From contig NZ_JAJUHW010000002.1 of the NCBI RefSeq assembly GCF_029265695.1, positions 79,674-143,673 of the forward strand: a stretch of DNA of 64,000 nucleotides. The letters run 5' to 3'. The notes beneath the pieces are model-generated. The model saw only the letters and a program-made list of their open reading frames with translations. It ran no database searches and had not been told where the DNA came from. Made by a program: the position numbers and the translations under genes. The DNA is from Gracilinema caldarium (GTDB lineage Bacteria > Spirochaetota > Spirochaetia > Treponematales > Breznakiellaceae). Positions 409-41,277 of this stretch are shown here, in pieces; position 1 is the first letter of the stretch; every line of letters starts with the position of its first letter.

Positions 409-414
409 GCCCGT

Positions 415-444
415 ATTGTACTCTAAAATAAGCAATCTAGCCAA
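415..444 (-). promoter_or_regulatory. putative sigma-70 promoter of the cyclase gene
   Basis: On the minus strand TTGGCT (-35) is followed after 18 nt by TACAAT (-10), and the ATG begins 6 nt after the -10. Initiation at the usual distance would put the first base of the message at the start codon. A 7-bp inverted repeat, CCAATTT-aaa-AAATTGG (441-457 on the plus strand), overlaps the -35 and could be an operator. Confidence 0.45.
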
Positions 445-658: not shown

Positions 659-687
659 TTGTTAGGCTTTCCAAGTCCATGTATGCT
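659..687 (+). promoter_or_regulatory. putative sigma-70 promoter of uvrA
   Basis: TTGTTA (659-664) and TATGCT (682-687) are 17 nt apart. The ATG at 697 lies 9 nt after the -10, so the transcript would start at or just before it. The upstream in-frame ATG at 679 lies inside this promoter, which argues against it as the translational start. Confidence 0.45.
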
Positions 688-696
688 TACCCAAGT

Positions 697-13306: not shown

Positions 13307-14551
13307 TCACATACCCTTTGATTGCAGCAGGGGCAATATGGATTGGATCCATTCGCGTGCCTCTGCAGGATAGGTGTTTTGCATAAGTAAAAATTCAAAG
13401 AGGGCTTCGCGGTACTTCTCCGTCATATAATATGCTTGACCAAGATAGAACCTGCCTCGGGCTTCTATAATAGACGATCTTGGCAAAGATAAAAAACGTA
13501 CCAGCTGGTCAATGACCTCATTCCAATCTCTGCTTGCAAAAGGCCCCTGTACGATGGAGCGAAGGGTAAATTCTTCTCCGCCTCCGGAGGCATTAAGATC
13601 CTGAGAAAAGGCCCGAGGTTTTTTAAGAACCATTTTTTGCGGTTCTGGGAATGGCAAAGAGGCGACAGCCTTTTGAGTCTCCGGGCTAAGCGGGAGAGCG
13701 AGAGGTGGCAAAATAATCGTATTATCTGCACTGGGGACAGCGGCTGAGATAGAAAGTGTGGGAAGCGGAATAGAGCGAATGTTCTGCTGGGGCCCCGGAA
13801 GACCGATACGGAACGAACCAGCGGGAACCTCAGCGGGTACCAGGGTTGTATTTTTTCCCGCTTCAAGATTTAATTTCCCCTGTTTAATATCGTCCTCGAA
13901 AACCAATGCGTAGTAATAAGAAATATCTGGGACTGGATAGTCAACAAAGGGACTCGATGTAATACCCCCTTGAACGATGACTGCCTGAAGAAGATCCTGT
14001 ATATGCCGTATGGGCTGGGTACTCCGATATAAAACAAGCGGCCGGCTTGATGTGGTTTCGGAACCGTTTAATGAAAAAGAAAGCAGGATACTATCCTTTT
14101 GTACTTCTGTTTTGAGTGAGGATATATTCTGGTACTTTGAATCGGATTGAGAAAGCACAAGATTTGTTTTCTTTACATCCAACTCTACATAGTTCGTATT
14201 GGGAATCCTAACCATGTATGGATTTCCATCAGATCCGCTCGCAAGCACCAGATATGACCTAAGCCCATCGGATTCAATAGGTTCAATATAGGACTGAACG
14301 CCATGGGGAACCTGTATGCTATCCAGGTCCTTTGGGGTACTGGAACCGGCGGGAATAATTTTGCGGATAATGGTGACGGGTCCGGTACTGTCGGGAGCAT
14401 CAATCCATTGAAGACGGACTACATTGTCCTGAACGGCAGCGGTAAGCTGCCGAACAAAGGGAAGCGCAGATGTCGTATCTTCTGCAAGGATCGGATATAA
14501 TTTACTTAGCGCTATTAAAATAAGCAGGAAAACCTTTTCCGGATGTTTCAT
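13307..14551 (-). CDS. exported protein with Fn3-like segments and a C-terminal TPR-like motif, function unknown
   Basis: Not recognised as a named family. The start is placed at the second ATG (MKHPEKVFLLILIALSKLYPILAEDT), which gives a signal peptide and 414 aa. The longer ORF (14569) would begin inside a TATACT -10 element 6 nt upstream of this ATG. Two similar beta-type segments (TAAVQDNVVRLQWIDAPDS near residue 35 and TEVQKDSILLSFSLNGSE near 140) suggest fibronectin-III-like modules. The end (ARGRFYLGQAYYMTEKYREA) is one clear TPR helix pair. Probably periplasmic or surface-associated. It is convergent with the TPR gene (2-bp gap) and divergent from the Cas2-like gene. Confidence 0.7.
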   Translation of the reverse strand: MKHPEKVFLLILIALSKLYPILAEDTTSALPFVRQLTAAVQDNVVRLQWIDAPDSTGPVTIIRKIIPAGSSTPKDLDSIQVPHGVQSYIEPIESDGLRSYLVLASGSDGNPYMVRIPNTNYVELDVKKTNLVLSQSDSKYQNISSLKTEVQKDSILLSFSLNGSETTSSRPLVLYRSTQPIRHIQDLLQAVIVQGGITSSPFVDYPVPDISYYYALVFEDDIKQGKLNLEAGKNTTLVPAEVPAGSFRIGLPGPQQNIRSIPLPTLSISAAVPSADNTIILPPLALPLSPETQKAVASLPFPEPQKMVLKKPRAFSQDLNASGGGEEFTLRSIVQGPFASRDWNEVIDQLVRFLSLPRSSIIEARGRFYLGQAYYMTEKYREALFEFLLMQNTYPAEAREWIQSILPLLQSKGM

Positions 14552-14557
14552 AGAAAC

Positions 14558-14563
14558 AGTATA
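14558..14563 (-). promoter_or_regulatory. -10 element of the exported-protein gene (leaderless type)
   Basis: On the minus strand TATACT is followed by GTTTCT (6 nt) and then ATGAAACAT. No ribosome-binding site fits before this ATG and no good -35 is apparent. The 6-nt spacing matches that of three other genes in the window. Confidence 0.45.
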
Positions 14564-14621
14564 CTCCATTGTTTAATTTTCGGCTATTTTTTTACAAGTA
14601 AACAGCTCTTAGAATACGGGT

Positions 14622-14650
14622 TTGACAGAACGGTCCCTTTTCCGTAAGCT
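14622..14650 (+). promoter_or_regulatory. sigma-70 promoter of the Cas2-like gene (leaderless type)
   Basis: A perfect TTGACA -35 (14622-14627), a 17-nt spacer and TAAGCT (14645-14650) are followed by ACTGGT and then ATG. The predicted transcription start coincides with the start codon. Probably drives the Cas2-like gene and prfB. Confidence 0.65.
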
Positions 14651-14656
14651 ACTGGT

Positions 14657-14935
14657 ATGTTTGTATCGGTAGCCTTGGATCCCGGGTCGGAAGAACGGGC
14701 TCGAGAATTGGCAGATTTACTTGCCCAGTATGGATTTGAAAAAATTCAGCGCGGTTTGTGGGAATCTGGTCTTTTTCATCCTTCCAGCCTTGATCGGTTA
14801 AAGCGCGATATAGACCGTATTACCGATGCCTTTGACCGGATTCGTATTTTTCAATATCCTGTTGAAGGCACCTTGGTTATTTCCTCGCTGAAAGACAAAA
14901 AATGGCGGCGTCTTATTGTCCGCCCTTCAACATAA
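14657..14935 (+). CDS. Cas2-like small protein, orphan
   Basis: 92-aa protein whose plan resembles the CRISPR-associated Cas2 / VapD ferredoxin-like family. A first strand ends in Asp (MFVSVALDP, D8, where Cas2 has its conserved Asp). A helix-strand unit RELADLLAQYGFEKIQRGLWES follows, close to the Cas2 pattern 'LxxYGFxRIQxSVFE', then a second helix (SLDRLKRDIDRITD) and a strand pair (DRIRIFQYPVEGTLVISSL). No cas1, other cas gene or repeat array is present. It stands 11 nt before prfB behind its own strong promoter. It could be a nuclease, a toxin-like RNase or a repurposed dimeric fold. Similarity is judged by eye; function unknown. Confidence 0.65.
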   Translation: MFVSVALDPGSEERARELADLLAQYGFEKIQRGLWESGLFHPSSLDRLKRDIDRITDAFDRIRIFQYPVEGTLVISSLKDKKWRRLIVRPST

Positions 14936-14946
14936 GGAGACTTAAT

Positions 14947-16066
14947 ATGCTGCTTTCCGAATTAGGTGGTCCTATCCAGGACCTCAAAGCACAAATTTAT
15001 GACACCTGGAGGCGTCTTTGAAGCCGCAGGTTTTGAAGAAAAAATAAAAAATCTTGAAGAAAAAACCCAAGCAAGTGATTTTTGGAACGATTCAGCCAGA
15101 GCTGAAAAAGTAATGAACGAAATAAAGGCCCTTAAGGCTCGGTATGAACCGTGGAAAAGTCTGGTGGCAGAGATTGATGATGTGGAAGTTCTCTACCAGC
15201 TCGCCAGTGCTGAAAATGACGAATCCCATGCGGGGGAAATAGAAACAACCTTAAAAGAACTACAGAAACGGTTTGAAAAACAAAATCTTGTAGAACTCAT
15301 GTCCGGAGAAGTAGATCAAAGCAGCTGCTTCTTAACGGTACATGCAGGTGCTGGAGGAACCGAGGCCTGCGATTGGGCTCAGATGCTGTACCGAATGTAT
15401 GTACGATGGGCGGAGCGGAAAGGATATTCTATAGAAGAAGTCGATATGCTCGAAGCCGAGGGCGGCATTAAGTCGGCAACAGTAAAAATTGATGGTGATT
15501 ATGCCTATGGGTACCTTAAGGGTGAATCCGGGGTACATCGGCTGGTACGCATTTCGCCCTTCGATGCCAACGCACGGCGGCATACATCATTTGCATCGGT
15601 GTATGTCTTCCCCGTTCTCGATGATTCTATAGAGGTGGAAATTAGACCTGAAGATCTTCGTATCGATACATACCGTTCTGGAGGTGCGGGCGGACAGCAT
15701 GTTAACAAGACTGACAGTGCGGTACGTCTCACCCATCTTCCTACCGGTATTGTGGTAGCCTGCCAAAACGAGCGAAGTCAGATTAAAAACAAAGCGACAG
15801 CAATGAGCATGCTTAAGGCCCGGCTTTACGAATATTACCGGGCTGAAAAAGAAAAAGAAAACGAGCGCTTTGCCCAGGAGAAAAAAGACATTTCTTGGGG
15901 TAACCAGATTAGGTCCTATGTGTTTCAGCCATATACGTTGGTTAAGGATTCCCGTACTAAAATAGAAGTGGGGAACATTCAGGCCGTGATGGATGGCGAC
16001 ATAGATGTGTTTATTGAGGAGTATCTCCGTTTTGCATGGCATAATTCACAGCAGCAGTCTTCATAA
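14947..16066 (+). CDS. prfB: peptide chain release factor 2, +1 programmed frameshift
   Basis: RF2 releases completed peptides at UGA and UAA codons. The first 24 codons (MLLSELGGPIQDLKAQIYDTWRRL) end in an in-frame TGA at 15019. A +1 shift on CTT-T moves translation into the long frame (EAAGFEEKIKN...). The ORF track missed the true start and begins at an artefactual codon at 14966. The GGQ motif (RSGGAGGQHVNKTDSAVR) and the RF domain are intact. The start has AAGGAG at suitable spacing. Full length after the shift is about 372 aa, normal for RF2. The gene is presumably autoregulated by RF2 level. Its end overlaps the start region of the PEGA-protein gene. Confidence 0.97.
15008..15021 (+). 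promoter_or_regulatory. prfB +1 programmed frameshift site
   Basis: GGAGG (15008-15012), a 3-nt spacer, CTT and TGA (15019-15021) reproduce the canonical bacterial RF2 recoding site: an internal Shine-Dalgarno at exact spacing, a slippery CUU codon and a UGA stop. Slow termination when RF2 is scarce favours the shift. Confidence 0.95.
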
Positions 16067-31221: not shown

Positions 31222-31230
31222 TGCTATAAT
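31222..31230 (+). promoter_or_regulatory. extended -10 promoter of mrfA (leaderless type)
   Basis: TGC-TATAAT is a consensus extended -10. The ATG begins 6 nt later (TCTTTT-ATG) with no Shine-Dalgarno and no room for one. No clear -35 is present, as expected for extended -10 promoters. Confidence 0.6.
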
Positions 31231-31236
31231 TCTTTT

Positions 31237-33588
31237 ATGAATCACGATCACGCTCCCAATCATGCGAACGCTCAAGCTAACGCTCAAGCTAACGCTTTGG
31301 ATATATTGCTCACTAATCCTGCATTTGCGGACCATATTGTTCTTGAAAAAAGGATCCCCGCCGCACCTGCTGTTACGGTGCCTCTGCCAAAAGAAGTGGA
31401 TCCCCGGCTGAAGTCCGCACTGGAAGGCCGGGGTATCCGCGAACTGTATACCCACCAGGCGGAGGTGTGGAATTGTGTGCGCAAGGGTGAACATACAGTG
31501 GTGGTGACTCCTACCGCATCGGGGAAAACCCTCTGCTATAATTTGCCTGCTTTACAGGCCCTGTTGGAGGATGAACATGCACGGGCACTATACCTCTTTC
31601 CGACCAAGGCCCTATCCCAGGACCAGCAGGCGGAACTGAACGAACTGGTAGACGGCAAAGCGGGTAAGCTCCCCATCAAGGTGTGTACCTACGACGGCGA
31701 TACCCCCGATTCATTAAGGCTCGCAGCCCGGGATACGGGGCGGATTATCGTTTCAAATCCGGATATGCTCCATGCGGGTATTCTGCCAAATCACCCCAAG
31801 TGGATTAAGTTTTTTTCCCGCCTCACCTATGTGGTGATCGATGAGGCCCATACCTACCGGGGTGTTTTCGGCAGCCATGTGGCCAATGTGCTGAGGCGGC
31901 TTTTCCGGATTGCCGCTTTTTACGGTGCTCATCCGGTTGTGATCCTATGCTCTGCCACTATCGGCAATCCCAGGGAATTAGCCGAAAGCCTCATCGGCAT
32001 GCCGGTAGCTCTGGTGGATAAAAACGGAGCTCCCCGGGGAGAAAAGAGGATAATCCTGTATAATCCGCCATTGGTAGATGCGGTGCAAGGGATCAGGCGC
32101 AGTGTGGTTACCGAAAGCCGCCGCTGGACCGTAGCGCTCCTCAAGGCGGGAATTAAAACCATACTGTTTGCCCACTCGCGGCTTAAAACAGAGGTGGCCG
32201 CTTCGTACATCAGGGAAGACTTGGCAAATATCTATACGGATAATCACCATATCAAAGTGGAACCATACCGGGGAGGACTCTTACCCAATGAACGGCGGGA
32301 AATAGAAAAGGGCCTCAGGGATGGGACTATTCAAGGTGTTGTTTCCACCAATGCGCTTGAGCTTGGTATTGATATTGGCGGCCTTGATGCGGCTGTTGTG
32401 GCAGGTTTTCCCGGATCTTTCAATTCCTTTTGGCAGCAGATTGGCCGCTCTGGCCGCAGAGGCGGTACTTCCCTGGCGGTTTTTATAGCCTCCTCTTCGC
32501 CTTTGGACCAATATATTATTAAACATCCAGACTGGTTTTTTAGAAGTTCCGCTGAAGAGGCTCATATTGATCCAAATAATCCCTATGTGATTACGGACCA
32601 TGTAAAATGTGCTGCCTTTGAATTGCCCTTTACCCAAGAGAATCTTGCAGCGGGAAAAGACCCCTTTGGTTCCGCTGTTGTAGATGTACTTACCTATTTG
32701 GAAGAGGAGGGGATTCTCCGCTCTGTTGGAGGCCGTTGGTACTGGGCCGATCGGTCTTACCCGGCGGAAAGCATCAGTCTCCGTTCCGCTACGGCGGACA
32801 ATGTGGCTATTATCGACACGACCCAGGGCCGCAATGCGGTGATTGGCGAAATGGACCGGCCTAGCGCCAAGGAATTGATTTTTGACAATGCAGTATACAT
32901 TCACCGGAGCCGCCAATATGTGGTTAAAAAGCTGGATATCCAGAACCGGAAATGCCTTGTGGAAGAGGCGGATGTGAATTATTATACCGATGCGCTGGTT
33001 AAAACTGATATAAAGGTTCTCATGGAAGATGAAAAGCGGGAAGTGCCGGGAAATCTGTGCCGTCTGGTTTTAGGGGATGTGCTTGTCCGATCCCAGGCGG
33101 CGAAATTTAAAAAAATACGCTTCCATACCCATGAAAATATCGGTTACGGGACGATTGAACTGCCTGAGGAAGAACTGCAGACCCGGTCCCTTGCCTTGCT
33201 GTTTGAAGCGGGAACAGAGGCCGGCAAAGCCCTCGAGGGACGGGACGAAGAAGCGACGGGACGGATACTATCGGGCGTTGGCTCCCTCATTAAGCGTATT
33301 GCCCCCGTTTTTGTTCTCTGCGATCCCCGTGATTTAGGTGTTTCCGAACGGGTCCGGGATCCGCATTTTATGGTGCCCGCCCTTTTTATTTTTGACCATT
33401 ACCCCGGAGGAACCGGGCTCGCAGAAGCCCTCGCTTCTCATATCCCTGATCTTCTGCGTTGGGTGGCAGAGGCTGTAGAGCTTTGTTCTTGTGAAAAGGG
33501 CTGCCCCAGCTGTGTAGGCCCCGATGGGGATAAAGGGGCAGTACGGGACTTTTTGCATCAGGTGCTTGGCGATGGCGGGAAATCTTAA
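31237..33588 (+). CDS. mrfA: MrfA-like DEAD/DEAH-box DNA helicase
   Basis: 783-aa SF2 helicase of the MrfA/YprA (Lhr-related) family, which in Bacillus subtilis repairs mitomycin-type DNA damage with MrfB. Motif I TPTASGKTLCYNLPAL is near residue 90, motif II DEAH near 201, motif III SATIGNP, and motif VI QQIGRSGRRG near 400. The C-terminal DUF1998-type zinc module ends CSCEKGCPSCVGP near 750. The N-terminus carries a short Asn-Ala/Gln-Ala repeat from a 12-nt DNA repeat. The next gene starts inside its 3' end, as expected for an mrfAB pair. Confidence 0.88.
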   Translation: MNHDHAPNHANAQANAQANALDILLTNPAFADHIVLEKRIPAAPAVTVPLPKEVDPRLKSALEGRGIRELYTHQAEVWNCVRKGEHTVVVTPTASGKTLCYNLPALQALLEDEHARALYLFPTKALSQDQQAELNELVDGKAGKLPIKVCTYDGDTPDSLRLAARDTGRIIVSNPDMLHAGILPNHPKWIKFFSRLTYVVIDEAHTYRGVFGSHVANVLRRLFRIAAFYGAHPVVILCSATIGNPRELAESLIGMPVALVDKNGAPRGEKRIILYNPPLVDAVQGIRRSVVTESRRWTVALLKAGIKTILFAHSRLKTEVAASYIREDLANIYTDNHHIKVEPYRGGLLPNERREIEKGLRDGTIQGVVSTNALELGIDIGGLDAAVVAGFPGSFNSFWQQIGRSGRRGGTSLAVFIASSSPLDQYIIKHPDWFFRSSAEEAHIDPNNPYVITDHVKCAAFELPFTQENLAAGKDPFGSAVVDVLTYLEEEGILRSVGGRWYWADRSYPAESISLRSATADNVAIIDTTQGRNAVIGEMDRPSAKELIFDNAVYIHRSRQYVVKKLDIQNRKCLVEEADVNYYTDALVKTDIKVLMEDEKREVPGNLCRLVLGDVLVRSQAAKFKKIRFHTHENIGYGTIELPEEELQTRSLALLFEAGTEAGKALEGRDEEATGRILSGVGSLIKRIAPVFVLCDPRDLGVSERVRDPHFMVPALFIFDHYPGGTGLAEALASHIPDLLRWVAEAVELCSCEKGCPSCVGPDGDKGAVRDFLHQVLGDGGKS

Positions 33589-39378: not shown

Positions 39379-39385
39379 GGATTGC

Positions 39386-39415
39386 ATACTACAACAGGAT
39401 GCCCCCCTGCGACAA
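39386..39415 (-). promoter_or_regulatory. putative promoter of rdgB
   Basis: On the minus strand TTGTCG and TAGTAT are 18 nt apart, with the ATG at 39378 located 7 nt after the -10. No Shine-Dalgarno is present. Divergent from the promoter of the methyltransferase-kinase gene. Confidence 0.4.
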
Positions 39416-39435: not shown

Positions 39436-39471
39436 CTATCCCTTGCGGGATAGGTAAAACTGCGCTACAGT
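39436..39471 (+). promoter_or_regulatory. promoter with overlapping inverted repeat, methyltransferase-psuK operon
   Basis: TTGCGG (39443-39448) and TACAGT (39466-39471) are 17 nt apart, and the ATG begins 9 nt after the -10 without a Shine-Dalgarno. A perfect 7-bp inverted repeat, CTATCCC-TTGC-GGGATAG (39436-39453), covers the -35 and is a candidate operator. Confidence 0.45.
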
Positions 39472-39480
39472 AGTTCTCCC

Positions 39481-41277
39481 ATGAACTGTCCCCTCTGCGA
39501 TAGGCCGAGCACAGAAATAATCTCAACAAAACGGCGTTCCTTTTATAGCTGCAGTCTATGCGGCTTTGTCTGGGCCGACCCCGCTTTATATCTGAGTCGC
39601 GACGAAGAAGAAAAACGTTACAGCCTCCATGAGAACAGCCGTGAAAATGCCGGTTATGTCCGTTTCTTGTCAGAAATTCTGGACCAGGGGCTTCAGTACT
39701 GGTATAGCAAGCGTAGACCTCAGGTTTATCATCAGGAGGGGGCACTGGGTGATACGAAAACAGCCCCGCTTGTGCTGGATTGGGGAGCCGGGCCTAATCC
39801 GCTTGCATCAGAACTTCTGCAGGAACGGGGCTGCACCGTCTATTCCTATGATCCCCTCTTTGGTTCACCCCTTCCGCTAGAGGATCCGCGTTTCGATATA
39901 ATATTCTGCATCGAGGTAGCTGAGCATTTTAAGGATCCCCTAAAAGATTTTAGTGCCATGGCACGATACCTTAAAAACGGCGGTCTTCTCATTATTCATA
40001 CCCACAAGATTCCCTGCGAAGTTTTTGCTGGCGAAGCTGGTTCTCTCAAGGACTTTTTTGCCCCCTGGTGGTACAAGGAAGATCCCACCCATGTGTCTTT
40101 TTACTCAGATCAAAGTCTCGAAGTCCTAGCCCTTTGCAGCGGTCTCCATTTTATTCAGGGGGAAAACCTGCACTTTTTCACAAAACCCCAGCCCGTTTTA
40201 GTTGCCGGGGGTGCCAATGTGGATATAGAAGGCAGGCCCTATGGCCCGCTCCGGGACCGCGATTCTAATCCGGGCCGTGTCCGTTTTTCCCGGGGTGGCG
40301 CAGGCCGAAACATGGCGGAAAACCTGGCACGCCTTAACATACCGGTCCAGTTTATCGGAGTGTTTGGCAGAGACCCTCTCTCACGGATGCTGTTTGAAGA
40401 GACAAAAGAGACGGGAGTACATCTTGATGGAGTGCTCCATGTTGAAAGCGACAGTCCTTCCTGTTATGTATCCATACTGGATGACTTGGGGGACATGCGG
40501 CTTGCCCTTTCATCAATGGACAGTATTTCCCTTCTCAATCCCGAAGCTATCAGGGCCTGTCTAGAAAAGTTCTCATCAGTGTCTGGTCCGGAGGATCCTC
40601 TTTTTTCTGCCCTTATCGCTGATGGGAACCTGTTACCCGAAACCATCGATGCTCTGCTAGCCGCCCTGCCGCATGTCCCCGCCTGGTTTGATCCGGTTTC
40701 TACTGCTAAGGCCCGGCGCTTTGCCGCGTACCAGAATGGGGGCCTCATCGGTCGCTTTTATGGTCTAAAACCTAATGCGGACGAACTCTTGGCTATGGCT
40801 GAAACCCTGGGCTACAGTTTTGCATCTCATTTAAATACAGTATACCAAAACTTCATAGAACATGCTTTTTTCAAAGGTTTTAAGAACTTAGATCAGCATG
40901 GGCTTAAAAAGATTTTACAGGCCGCTCTTTTTCTTTTGGAAAAGGGCTGCCGGGAACTCCATGTAAGCGTCGGAGTCGATGGAGTTTTTCTCGTGACTAA
41001 GGACCGTGTAATCTGGGGAAAGCCCCCGATTATTCCCATGAAAAGCGCTACCGGTGCCGGGGATTCATACCTGGCGGCGGTGGTTCGGACGGACCTTCTA
41101 AGCAACTGGTCAGAAGATCCACACTACAGGATTGCCTCTGGCTGTGCTGCCTCGGCGATTACGCTGGAAGATGAAGAAGCGGTGAGCCGTAATATGTCAC
41201 CAGCCGCCCTGTATCGGCTTATCAATGAATGGAAAGAAAAAGGACAATTTACCGTGGTTGCCAGTGACGATCACTAA
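39481..41277 (+). CDS. fusion: zinc-ribbon/SAM methyltransferase domain + PfkB-type pseudouridine kinase
   Basis: 598 aa with two parts. Residues 1 to about 238: a CPLC...CSLC zinc ribbon and a class I SAM methyltransferase (VLDWGAGPNPLASELL motif I, DIIFCIEVAEHFKDP, LKNGGLLIIHTH). Residues about 239-598: a PfkB kinase closest to PsuK, with VAGGANVDIEG, FSRGGAGRNMAENLARLN and the catalytic GAGDSYLAAVV. The frame is continuous with no stop or shift. PsuK phosphorylates pseudouridine; the next gene (psuG) cleaves the product, supporting this assignment. The methyltransferase target is unknown. Confidence 0.85.
   Translation: MNCPLCDRPSTEIISTKRRSFYSCSLCGFVWADPALYLSRDEEEKRYSLHENSRENAGYVRFLSEILDQGLQYWYSKRRPQVYHQEGALGDTKTAPLVLDWGAGPNPLASELLQERGCTVYSYDPLFGSPLPLEDPRFDIIFCIEVAEHFKDPLKDFSAMARYLKNGGLLIIHTHKIPCEVFAGEAGSLKDFFAPWWYKEDPTHVSFYSDQSLEVLALCSGLHFIQGENLHFFTKPQPVLVAGGANVDIEGRPYGPLRDRDSNPGRVRFSRGGAGRNMAENLARLNIPVQFIGVFGRDPLSRMLFEETKETGVHLDGVLHVESDSPSCYVSILDDLGDMRLALSSMDSISLLNPEAIRACLEKFSSVSGPEDPLFSALIADGNLLPETIDALLAALPHVPAWFDPVSTAKARRFAAYQNGGLIGRFYGLKPNADELLAMAETLGYSFASHLNTVYQNFIEHAFFKGFKNLDQHGLKKILQAALFLLEKGCRELHVSVGVDGVFLVTKDRVIWGKPPIIPMKSATGAGDSYLAAVVRTDLLSNWSEDPHYRIASGCAASAITLEDEEAVSRNMSPAALYRLINEWKEKGQFTVVASDDH

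Follow-up and report, generated by a model that had tools for sequence, protein, structure and literature searches.

Back-to-back promoters predicted to yield leaderless messages from a divergent gene pair in a Treponematales spirochaete

Do the two genes that diverge from the 14549-14659 region begin their messages at the start codon itself? The question arises in a 64,000-nt stretch of the Gracilinema caldarium genome (the window, meaning the whole stretch analysed here), in which the start codons ATG 14551 and ATG 14657, on opposite strands, are separated by a 105-bp region. The original prediction had read a promoter on each strand with its -10 hexamer ending 6 nt before the ATG, and had taken the host for a spirochaete, which agrees with its place in the Treponematales, near Breznakiella. 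The explanation that we consider highly probable is that two divergent sigma-70-type promoters here would give rise to leaderless mRNAs, as members of a minor but systematic class of genes that, in this Treponematales lineage, stand first in their operon and are predicted to be leaderless. The features of the locus are as follows, with the basis of each in brackets.

14657..14935, plus strand: Cas2-like gene, 92 aa, predicted leaderless, first in an operon with prfB (open reading frame; Pfam PF09827)
14622..14627, plus strand: -35 TTGACA of the Cas2-like promoter (sequence, homologues)
14645..14650, plus strand: -10 TAAGCT of the Cas2-like promoter (sequence, homologues)
14651..14656, plus strand: 6-nt discriminator ACTGGT, with the predicted transcription start at the A of ATG 14657 (homologues)
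13307..14551, minus strand: divergent gene of no known family, 414 aa, likely exported, predicted leaderless (open reading frame)
14558..14563, minus strand: -10 TATACT of the divergent gene (sequence, homologues)
14552..14557, minus strand: 6-nt discriminator GTTTCT, with the predicted transcription start at the A of ATG 14551 (sequence, homologues)

Direct reading of the sequence gives exactly the predicted geometry on both strands: TTGACA, 17 nt, TAAGCT, 6 nt and the ATG at 14657 on the plus strand, and TATACT (14563-14558), the 6 nt GTTTCT and the ATG at 14551-14549 on the minus strand. The accompanying claim that neither gene has a Shine-Dalgarno sequence holds for the Cas2-like gene, at which, as at nearly all of its homologues, no strong Shine-Dalgarno is found (score 0); for the minus-strand gene, with a GGAG 12 nt 5' of ATG 14551, it is slightly overstated. 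The -35 of the minus-strand gene, TAGCCG, is also poor, matching the consensus at 3/6 positions. At both promoters, RNA polymerase with sigma-70 would begin transcription at the A of the start codon, the -10 ending 6 nt before it. Translation of the resulting message, with its 5'-terminal AUG, would have to do without a Shine-Dalgarno, presumably through 70S ribosomes or a route favoured by IF2, as is the case in other bacteria, whereas operon-internal genes would mostly use a Shine-Dalgarno. Both the actual 5' ends and the mode of translation start are what we infer from this arrangement.

The Cas2-like protein matches PF09827 weakly, at 26.6 bits against a cutoff of 23.8, which places it in the Cas2 family. 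It is 100% identical to a protein in a metagenome-assembled genome labelled Treponema sp. M74 and 78% identical to one from Breznakiella homolactica (Treponematales, Breznakiellaceae). The immediate neighbours of the gene are prfB and a gene with no Pfam match, and judged by these it looks like a stand-alone Cas2-like protein. Homologues occur in about a third of the family genomes (28/80) and offer 29 distinct loci with an upstream region. In 28 of these 29 a -35/-10 pair precedes the gene, with a TANNNT -10, the exception being L081, where the promoter is absent. Among the 28 loci with a site, the -10 lies exactly 6 nt from the ATG in 19 and 6-8 nt from it in 26, and the -35/-10 spacer is 17 nt in 25. 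The -35 is TTGACA or TTTACA in most of the 29 homologues, and the letter at -1 is a pyrimidine in 28 of them. The letters of the spacer and discriminator vary across homologues while the elements and their distances stay constant, the pattern expected of a functional leaderless promoter.

The downstream gene prfB of this operon has an ordinary start.

14947..16066, plus strand: prfB (RF2), downstream gene of the Cas2-like operon (Pfam PCRF and RF-1)

A Shine-Dalgarno, AAGGAG, precedes its ATG, and its translation would use the ordinary Shine-Dalgarno route. As a side observation, prfB contains the classic RF2 programmed frameshift: from ATG 14947 an in-frame TGA follows CTT (CTTTGA, 15016-15021) with GGAGG just 5' of it, and the RF2 reading continues in the +1 frame. 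This frameshift is ordinary, but a truncated open reading frame is to be expected from gene callers.

A quite different account of the two hexamers would be that they are chance or compositional matches in AT-rich DNA, helped by in-frame stops, and that the true transcription starts lie further upstream, behind ordinary or Shine-Dalgarno-free leaders. TANNNT is indeed a short and frequent motif, the DNA upstream of genes is AT-rich, and the minus-strand gene, with its poor -35 and its GGAG 12 nt from the ATG, would suit such an account. Against it stand the conservation of the site across many genera despite changed surrounding sequence, and the lack of upstream space in compact relatives. In L088, L077, L080 and L090 the two ATGs are merely 77-79 bp apart, a distance filled by two back-to-back promoters, so that any start farther upstream could only arise within the opposite gene.

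The positional test across the genome bears on the same alternative. The window is part of a 3.04-Mb assembly in 88 contigs, and the test was run on a 1.04-Mb sample of stretches, against dinucleotide shuffles as background. Genes and starts were called by a home-made coding score alone, with upstream signals ignored; individual starts may therefore be wrong. The original prediction had named a genome-wide peak at 6 nt as the outcome that would support it and the absence of one as the outcome that would speak against it, and the peak is there: TANNNT lies exactly 6 nt from the start in 24/169 first genes without a Shine-Dalgarno, against 5.3±2.1 in shuffled sequence. In 24 of the same 169 genes, the ATG follows a -35/-10 pair at a distance of 6-8 nt, versus 2.2±1.5 shuffled. 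The corresponding full-promoter counts at 6-8 nt are 13 versus 0.9±0.9 in G028, a relative of the same genus, 4 versus 0.6 in G034, 9 versus 1.5 in G092 and 5 versus 0.6 in G110; the same test in E. coli gives 0 versus 0.6. The 6-nt TANNNT is near background in first genes with a Shine-Dalgarno (4/186) and in operon-internal genes (6/406), so that the peak is confined to genes without a Shine-Dalgarno. Operon-internal genes carry a Shine-Dalgarno in 74% of cases versus 52% for first genes, in line with what had been predicted of them. On this basis, a TANNNT at 6-8 nt together with a genome-wide peak restricted to genes without a Shine-Dalgarno, the two genes of the locus qualify as predicted leaderless.

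A 6-7 nt peak is seen at called and other in-frame ATGs, and none at the out-of-frame ATGs that surround these starts. In-frame stop codons were considered as the cause of the 6-nt peak and rejected: with hexamers that begin with a stop removed, 25 remain at 6 nt, versus about 3-5 elsewhere. The sites are also kept at the orthologous G028 start for 21 of 25 candidates. Chance matching, which reproduces the peak neither in shuffles nor at out-of-frame ATGs nor in E. coli, is in our view very improbable. Leaderless mRNAs prefer AUG as their start codon, and either bind to 70S ribosomes or receive help from IF2. The start codons behave in keeping with this: TANNNT lies at 6 nt in 59/494 ATG starts and in 0/99 GTG/TTG starts, an ATG-only peak.

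A second alternative accepts the promoters as real and places the start 2-5 nt before the ATG, at least where the spacing is 7-9 nt, giving very short leaders. Spacings of this kind do occur in the window, which holds five further sites.

31225..31236, plus strand: TATAAT and 6 nt before ATG 31237 of a MrfA/HRQ1-like helicase (sequence)
409..420, minus strand: TACAAT and 6 nt before ATG 408 (sequence)
39379..39391, minus strand: TAGTAT and 7 nt before ATG 39378 of rdgB, Ham1 family (sequence, Pfam)
39466..39480, plus strand: TACAGT and 9 nt before ATG 39481 of a methyltransferase-PfkB fusion, a weaker case (sequence, Pfam)
682..696, plus strand: TATGCT and 9 nt before ATG 697 of uvrA, a weaker case (sequence)

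The two 6-nt sites, given in the original prediction as 31225-31239 (TATAAT) and 406-420 on the minus strand (TACAAT), read as described. The helicase promoter (TATAAT at 31225-31230) has an extended -10 (TGC) and no good -35, and its TATAAT-6-ATG arrangement is kept in G028, the one genome compared; the promoter of ATG 408 (TACAAT at 420-415) has a -35-like hexamer upstream with 4/6 matches. The 7-9 nt spacings had likewise been noticed, and here come to 7 nt for rdgB, whose site is conserved in G028 and G034, and 9 nt for uvrA and for the fusion gene, which had been called the psuK fusion. This last gene (39481-41277) joins methyltransferase and PfkB kinase domains in one 598-aa protein, according to Pfam. 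In the two 9-nt cases the message would be predicted to begin 2-3 nt upstream of the ATG and not at it.

These spacings lend the short-leader alternative some weight, as does the known tendency of initiation to shift by 1-2 nt to either side of its preferred position; in Leptospira, moreover, roughly one in two messages classed as leaderless begins 2-10 nt before the start codon (PMC5243855). The distribution of spacings and initiator letters speaks against it. The peak lies at 6 nt, and there a pyrimidine at -1 precedes the A at +1 almost universally, in 35/36 candidates versus 303/473 Shine-Dalgarno genes, with a weaker pattern at 7 nt (19/25) and 8 nt (11/14). A pyrimidine at -1 followed by A at +1 is the usual initiator letter pair. 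Taking these points together, we regard very short leaders as rather unlikely, and retain initiation at the A of the ATG as the preferred reading for the 6-nt sites.

How large the class is can be estimated as the count at the promoter spacing minus the rate at control spacings. This excess amounts to 55/837 genes (6.6%) here and to 28/332 (8.4%) in G028, 11/315 in G034, 13/338 in G092 and 6/344 in G110, the signal being weak in Breznakiella (G034) and in G110; the same subtraction leaves none in E. coli. It is concentrated in divergent genes (47/216, versus 6 expected), with hardly any in co-directional genes with long upstream gaps (8/139, versus 4.7). Predicted leaderless first genes are hence a real but minor class, of about 6-8% of genes, and not the rule for all first genes; about half of the first genes have a Shine-Dalgarno. 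The systematic class proposed in the original prediction is borne out by this genome-wide excess, within that limit.

The start of the minus-strand gene requires separate consideration. A Pfam search with its product gave no match, and relatives are found in 39/60 family genomes. In the program-made list of open reading frames, its longest frame starts at 14569, which would put TATACT inside the coding sequence, and if this longer frame were the true gene, the minus side would not be leaderless from TATACT. An ATG at 14569 is found not only in the window but also in L023/L071 and L022, and lies near the start used in other genera. Neither a -10 nor a Shine-Dalgarno fits 14569, however, and the signal peptide is better from 14551, whose ATG opens a typical one, MKHPEKVFLLILIALSK. 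G028 has no ATG at the equivalent of 14569 and keeps the promoter and start as TATACT-AGTACT-ATG. Because G028 lacks the upstream ATG yet retains TATACT-6-ATG, and because of the signal peptide at 14551, the true start is better placed at 14551 than at 14569, and we consider the longer frame a distinctly improbable alternative.

With the start at 14551 preferred, the homologues of the minus-strand gene have a TANNNT exactly 6 nt from the ATG in 12 of the 16 loci with a placeable start, a somewhat favourable count, since for some of them one of several in-frame ATGs was picked in knowledge of the promoter. The promoter of other genera consists of CTNTGGACG, about 17-18 nt and TANNNT-6-ATG, often with GCCGA beside the -10. 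Genus g1 departs from those genera in its -10 as well as in its ATG, with the spacing still at 6 nt: a GCCGA remnant persists, and about 18 nt downstream stands a new TATACT, followed after 6 nt by a new ATG. This suggests that the start codon and the -10 moved together in evolution. One further feature would mark the older position.

14570..14586, minus strand: TAGCCGAAAATTAAACA, aligned with GCCGA and the -10 of other genera (homologue comparison)

This segment is likely the remnant of an older promoter whose start codon would have lain near 14569. Separately, the CTNTGGACG...GCCGA pattern, located about the -35 and directly ahead of the -10 of the divergent gene, is conserved in L077, L088, L080, L090, L074, L026 and L027; its conservation goes beyond the needs of a plain promoter, and it is possibly a regulator site. 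Reading the conserved GCCGAT beside the minus-strand -10 as a sigma-28 element was rejected by eye: where sigma-28 would have its -35 TAAA, the conserved CTNTGGACG stands instead.

Divergent pairs that are leaderless on both sides are not over-represented in this genome (3 seen, 5.1 expected), and in G028 there are 6, versus 3.6 expected. Back-to-back pairs are thus not special beyond the single-gene rate. Also in this genome, some divergent pairs have 63-67 bp between their ATGs, among them C37:41558-41622, L055:16028-16092, L059:9309-9373 and C11:14008-14075, with 64-67 bp and -10-like sites near both ATGs. A single palindromic stretch (TTGACAA, TTGTCCAA) contains both overlapping -35-like elements in C11 and in L055, so that two polymerases could hardly bind at the same time; among the 63-67 bp pairs, those with overlapping -35 elements could not be demonstrated to form a distinct class.

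A more far-reaching proposal, which we put forward as speculative and would sooner doubt than believe, is that the intergenic region between the Cas2-like and exported-protein genes is a compact, family-ancestral leaderless module of two back-to-back promoters, with 77-79 bp between the ATGs in four genera, in which -10 and ATG move together, and that leaderlessness is a selected trait of mainly divergent pairs in Treponematales, possibly forming a regulon. If true, such a regulon, the prfB operon included, would be favoured in translation when ribosomes or initiation factors change.

The locus offers a conserved two-strand test site for leaderless expression in Treponematales. There are consequences for annotation as well, as start callers that assume a Shine-Dalgarno will misplace several percent of starts. 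That the class favours divergent pairs suggests a joint evolution of leaderlessness and compact intergenic space.

Leaderless genes have precedents at several distances from this lineage. Our literature search found no Treponema 5'-end map that discusses leaderless messages. Zheng et al. (2011), in the accessible text of their survey, report leaderless (TA-led) genes in 207/953 bacterial genomes and in 6/18 spirochaetes, at a mean of 3.9% and a range of 1.8-6.9% (PMC3160421); no genome of the present family is among those named there. The present genes resemble their TA-led genes, as described in that text, in having a TANNNT whose first T lies about 12 bp before the start and no Shine-Dalgarno; they differ in frequency, our estimate of about 6.6% (8.4% in G028), obtained by a different method, lying at or above the top of the spirochaete range (PMC3160421).

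In Leptospira interrogans, a member of a distant spirochaete group, about 430-450 genes have a mapped start within 10 nt of the start codon and 170-184 exactly on it (PMC5243855). Those starts were measured by dRNA-seq; no common motif besides sigma-54 was reported there, whereas clear -35/-10 pairs are found here (PMC5243855). With leaderless expression measured in Leptospira and, in the literature consulted here, only predicted in other spirochaetes, the trait now has a firm sequence footing in Treponematales.

Further away, in the actinobacterium Mycobacterium tuberculosis, TANNNT-driven leaderless mRNAs account for about a quarter of the genes with a primary start, and closely juxtaposed divergent promoters are common, prpD/Rv1129c being leaderless on both sides (PMC3898074). 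The present locus shares with that pair the close divergent promoters and the predicted leaderlessness of both genes. It departs from M. tuberculosis, where promoters have no -35 consensus and Val starts are also used, in that the -35 is often clear and the peak is confined to ATG (PMC3898074). The phenomenon itself is already known from other bacteria, and the best part of the present case is a two-sided example conserved across the family.
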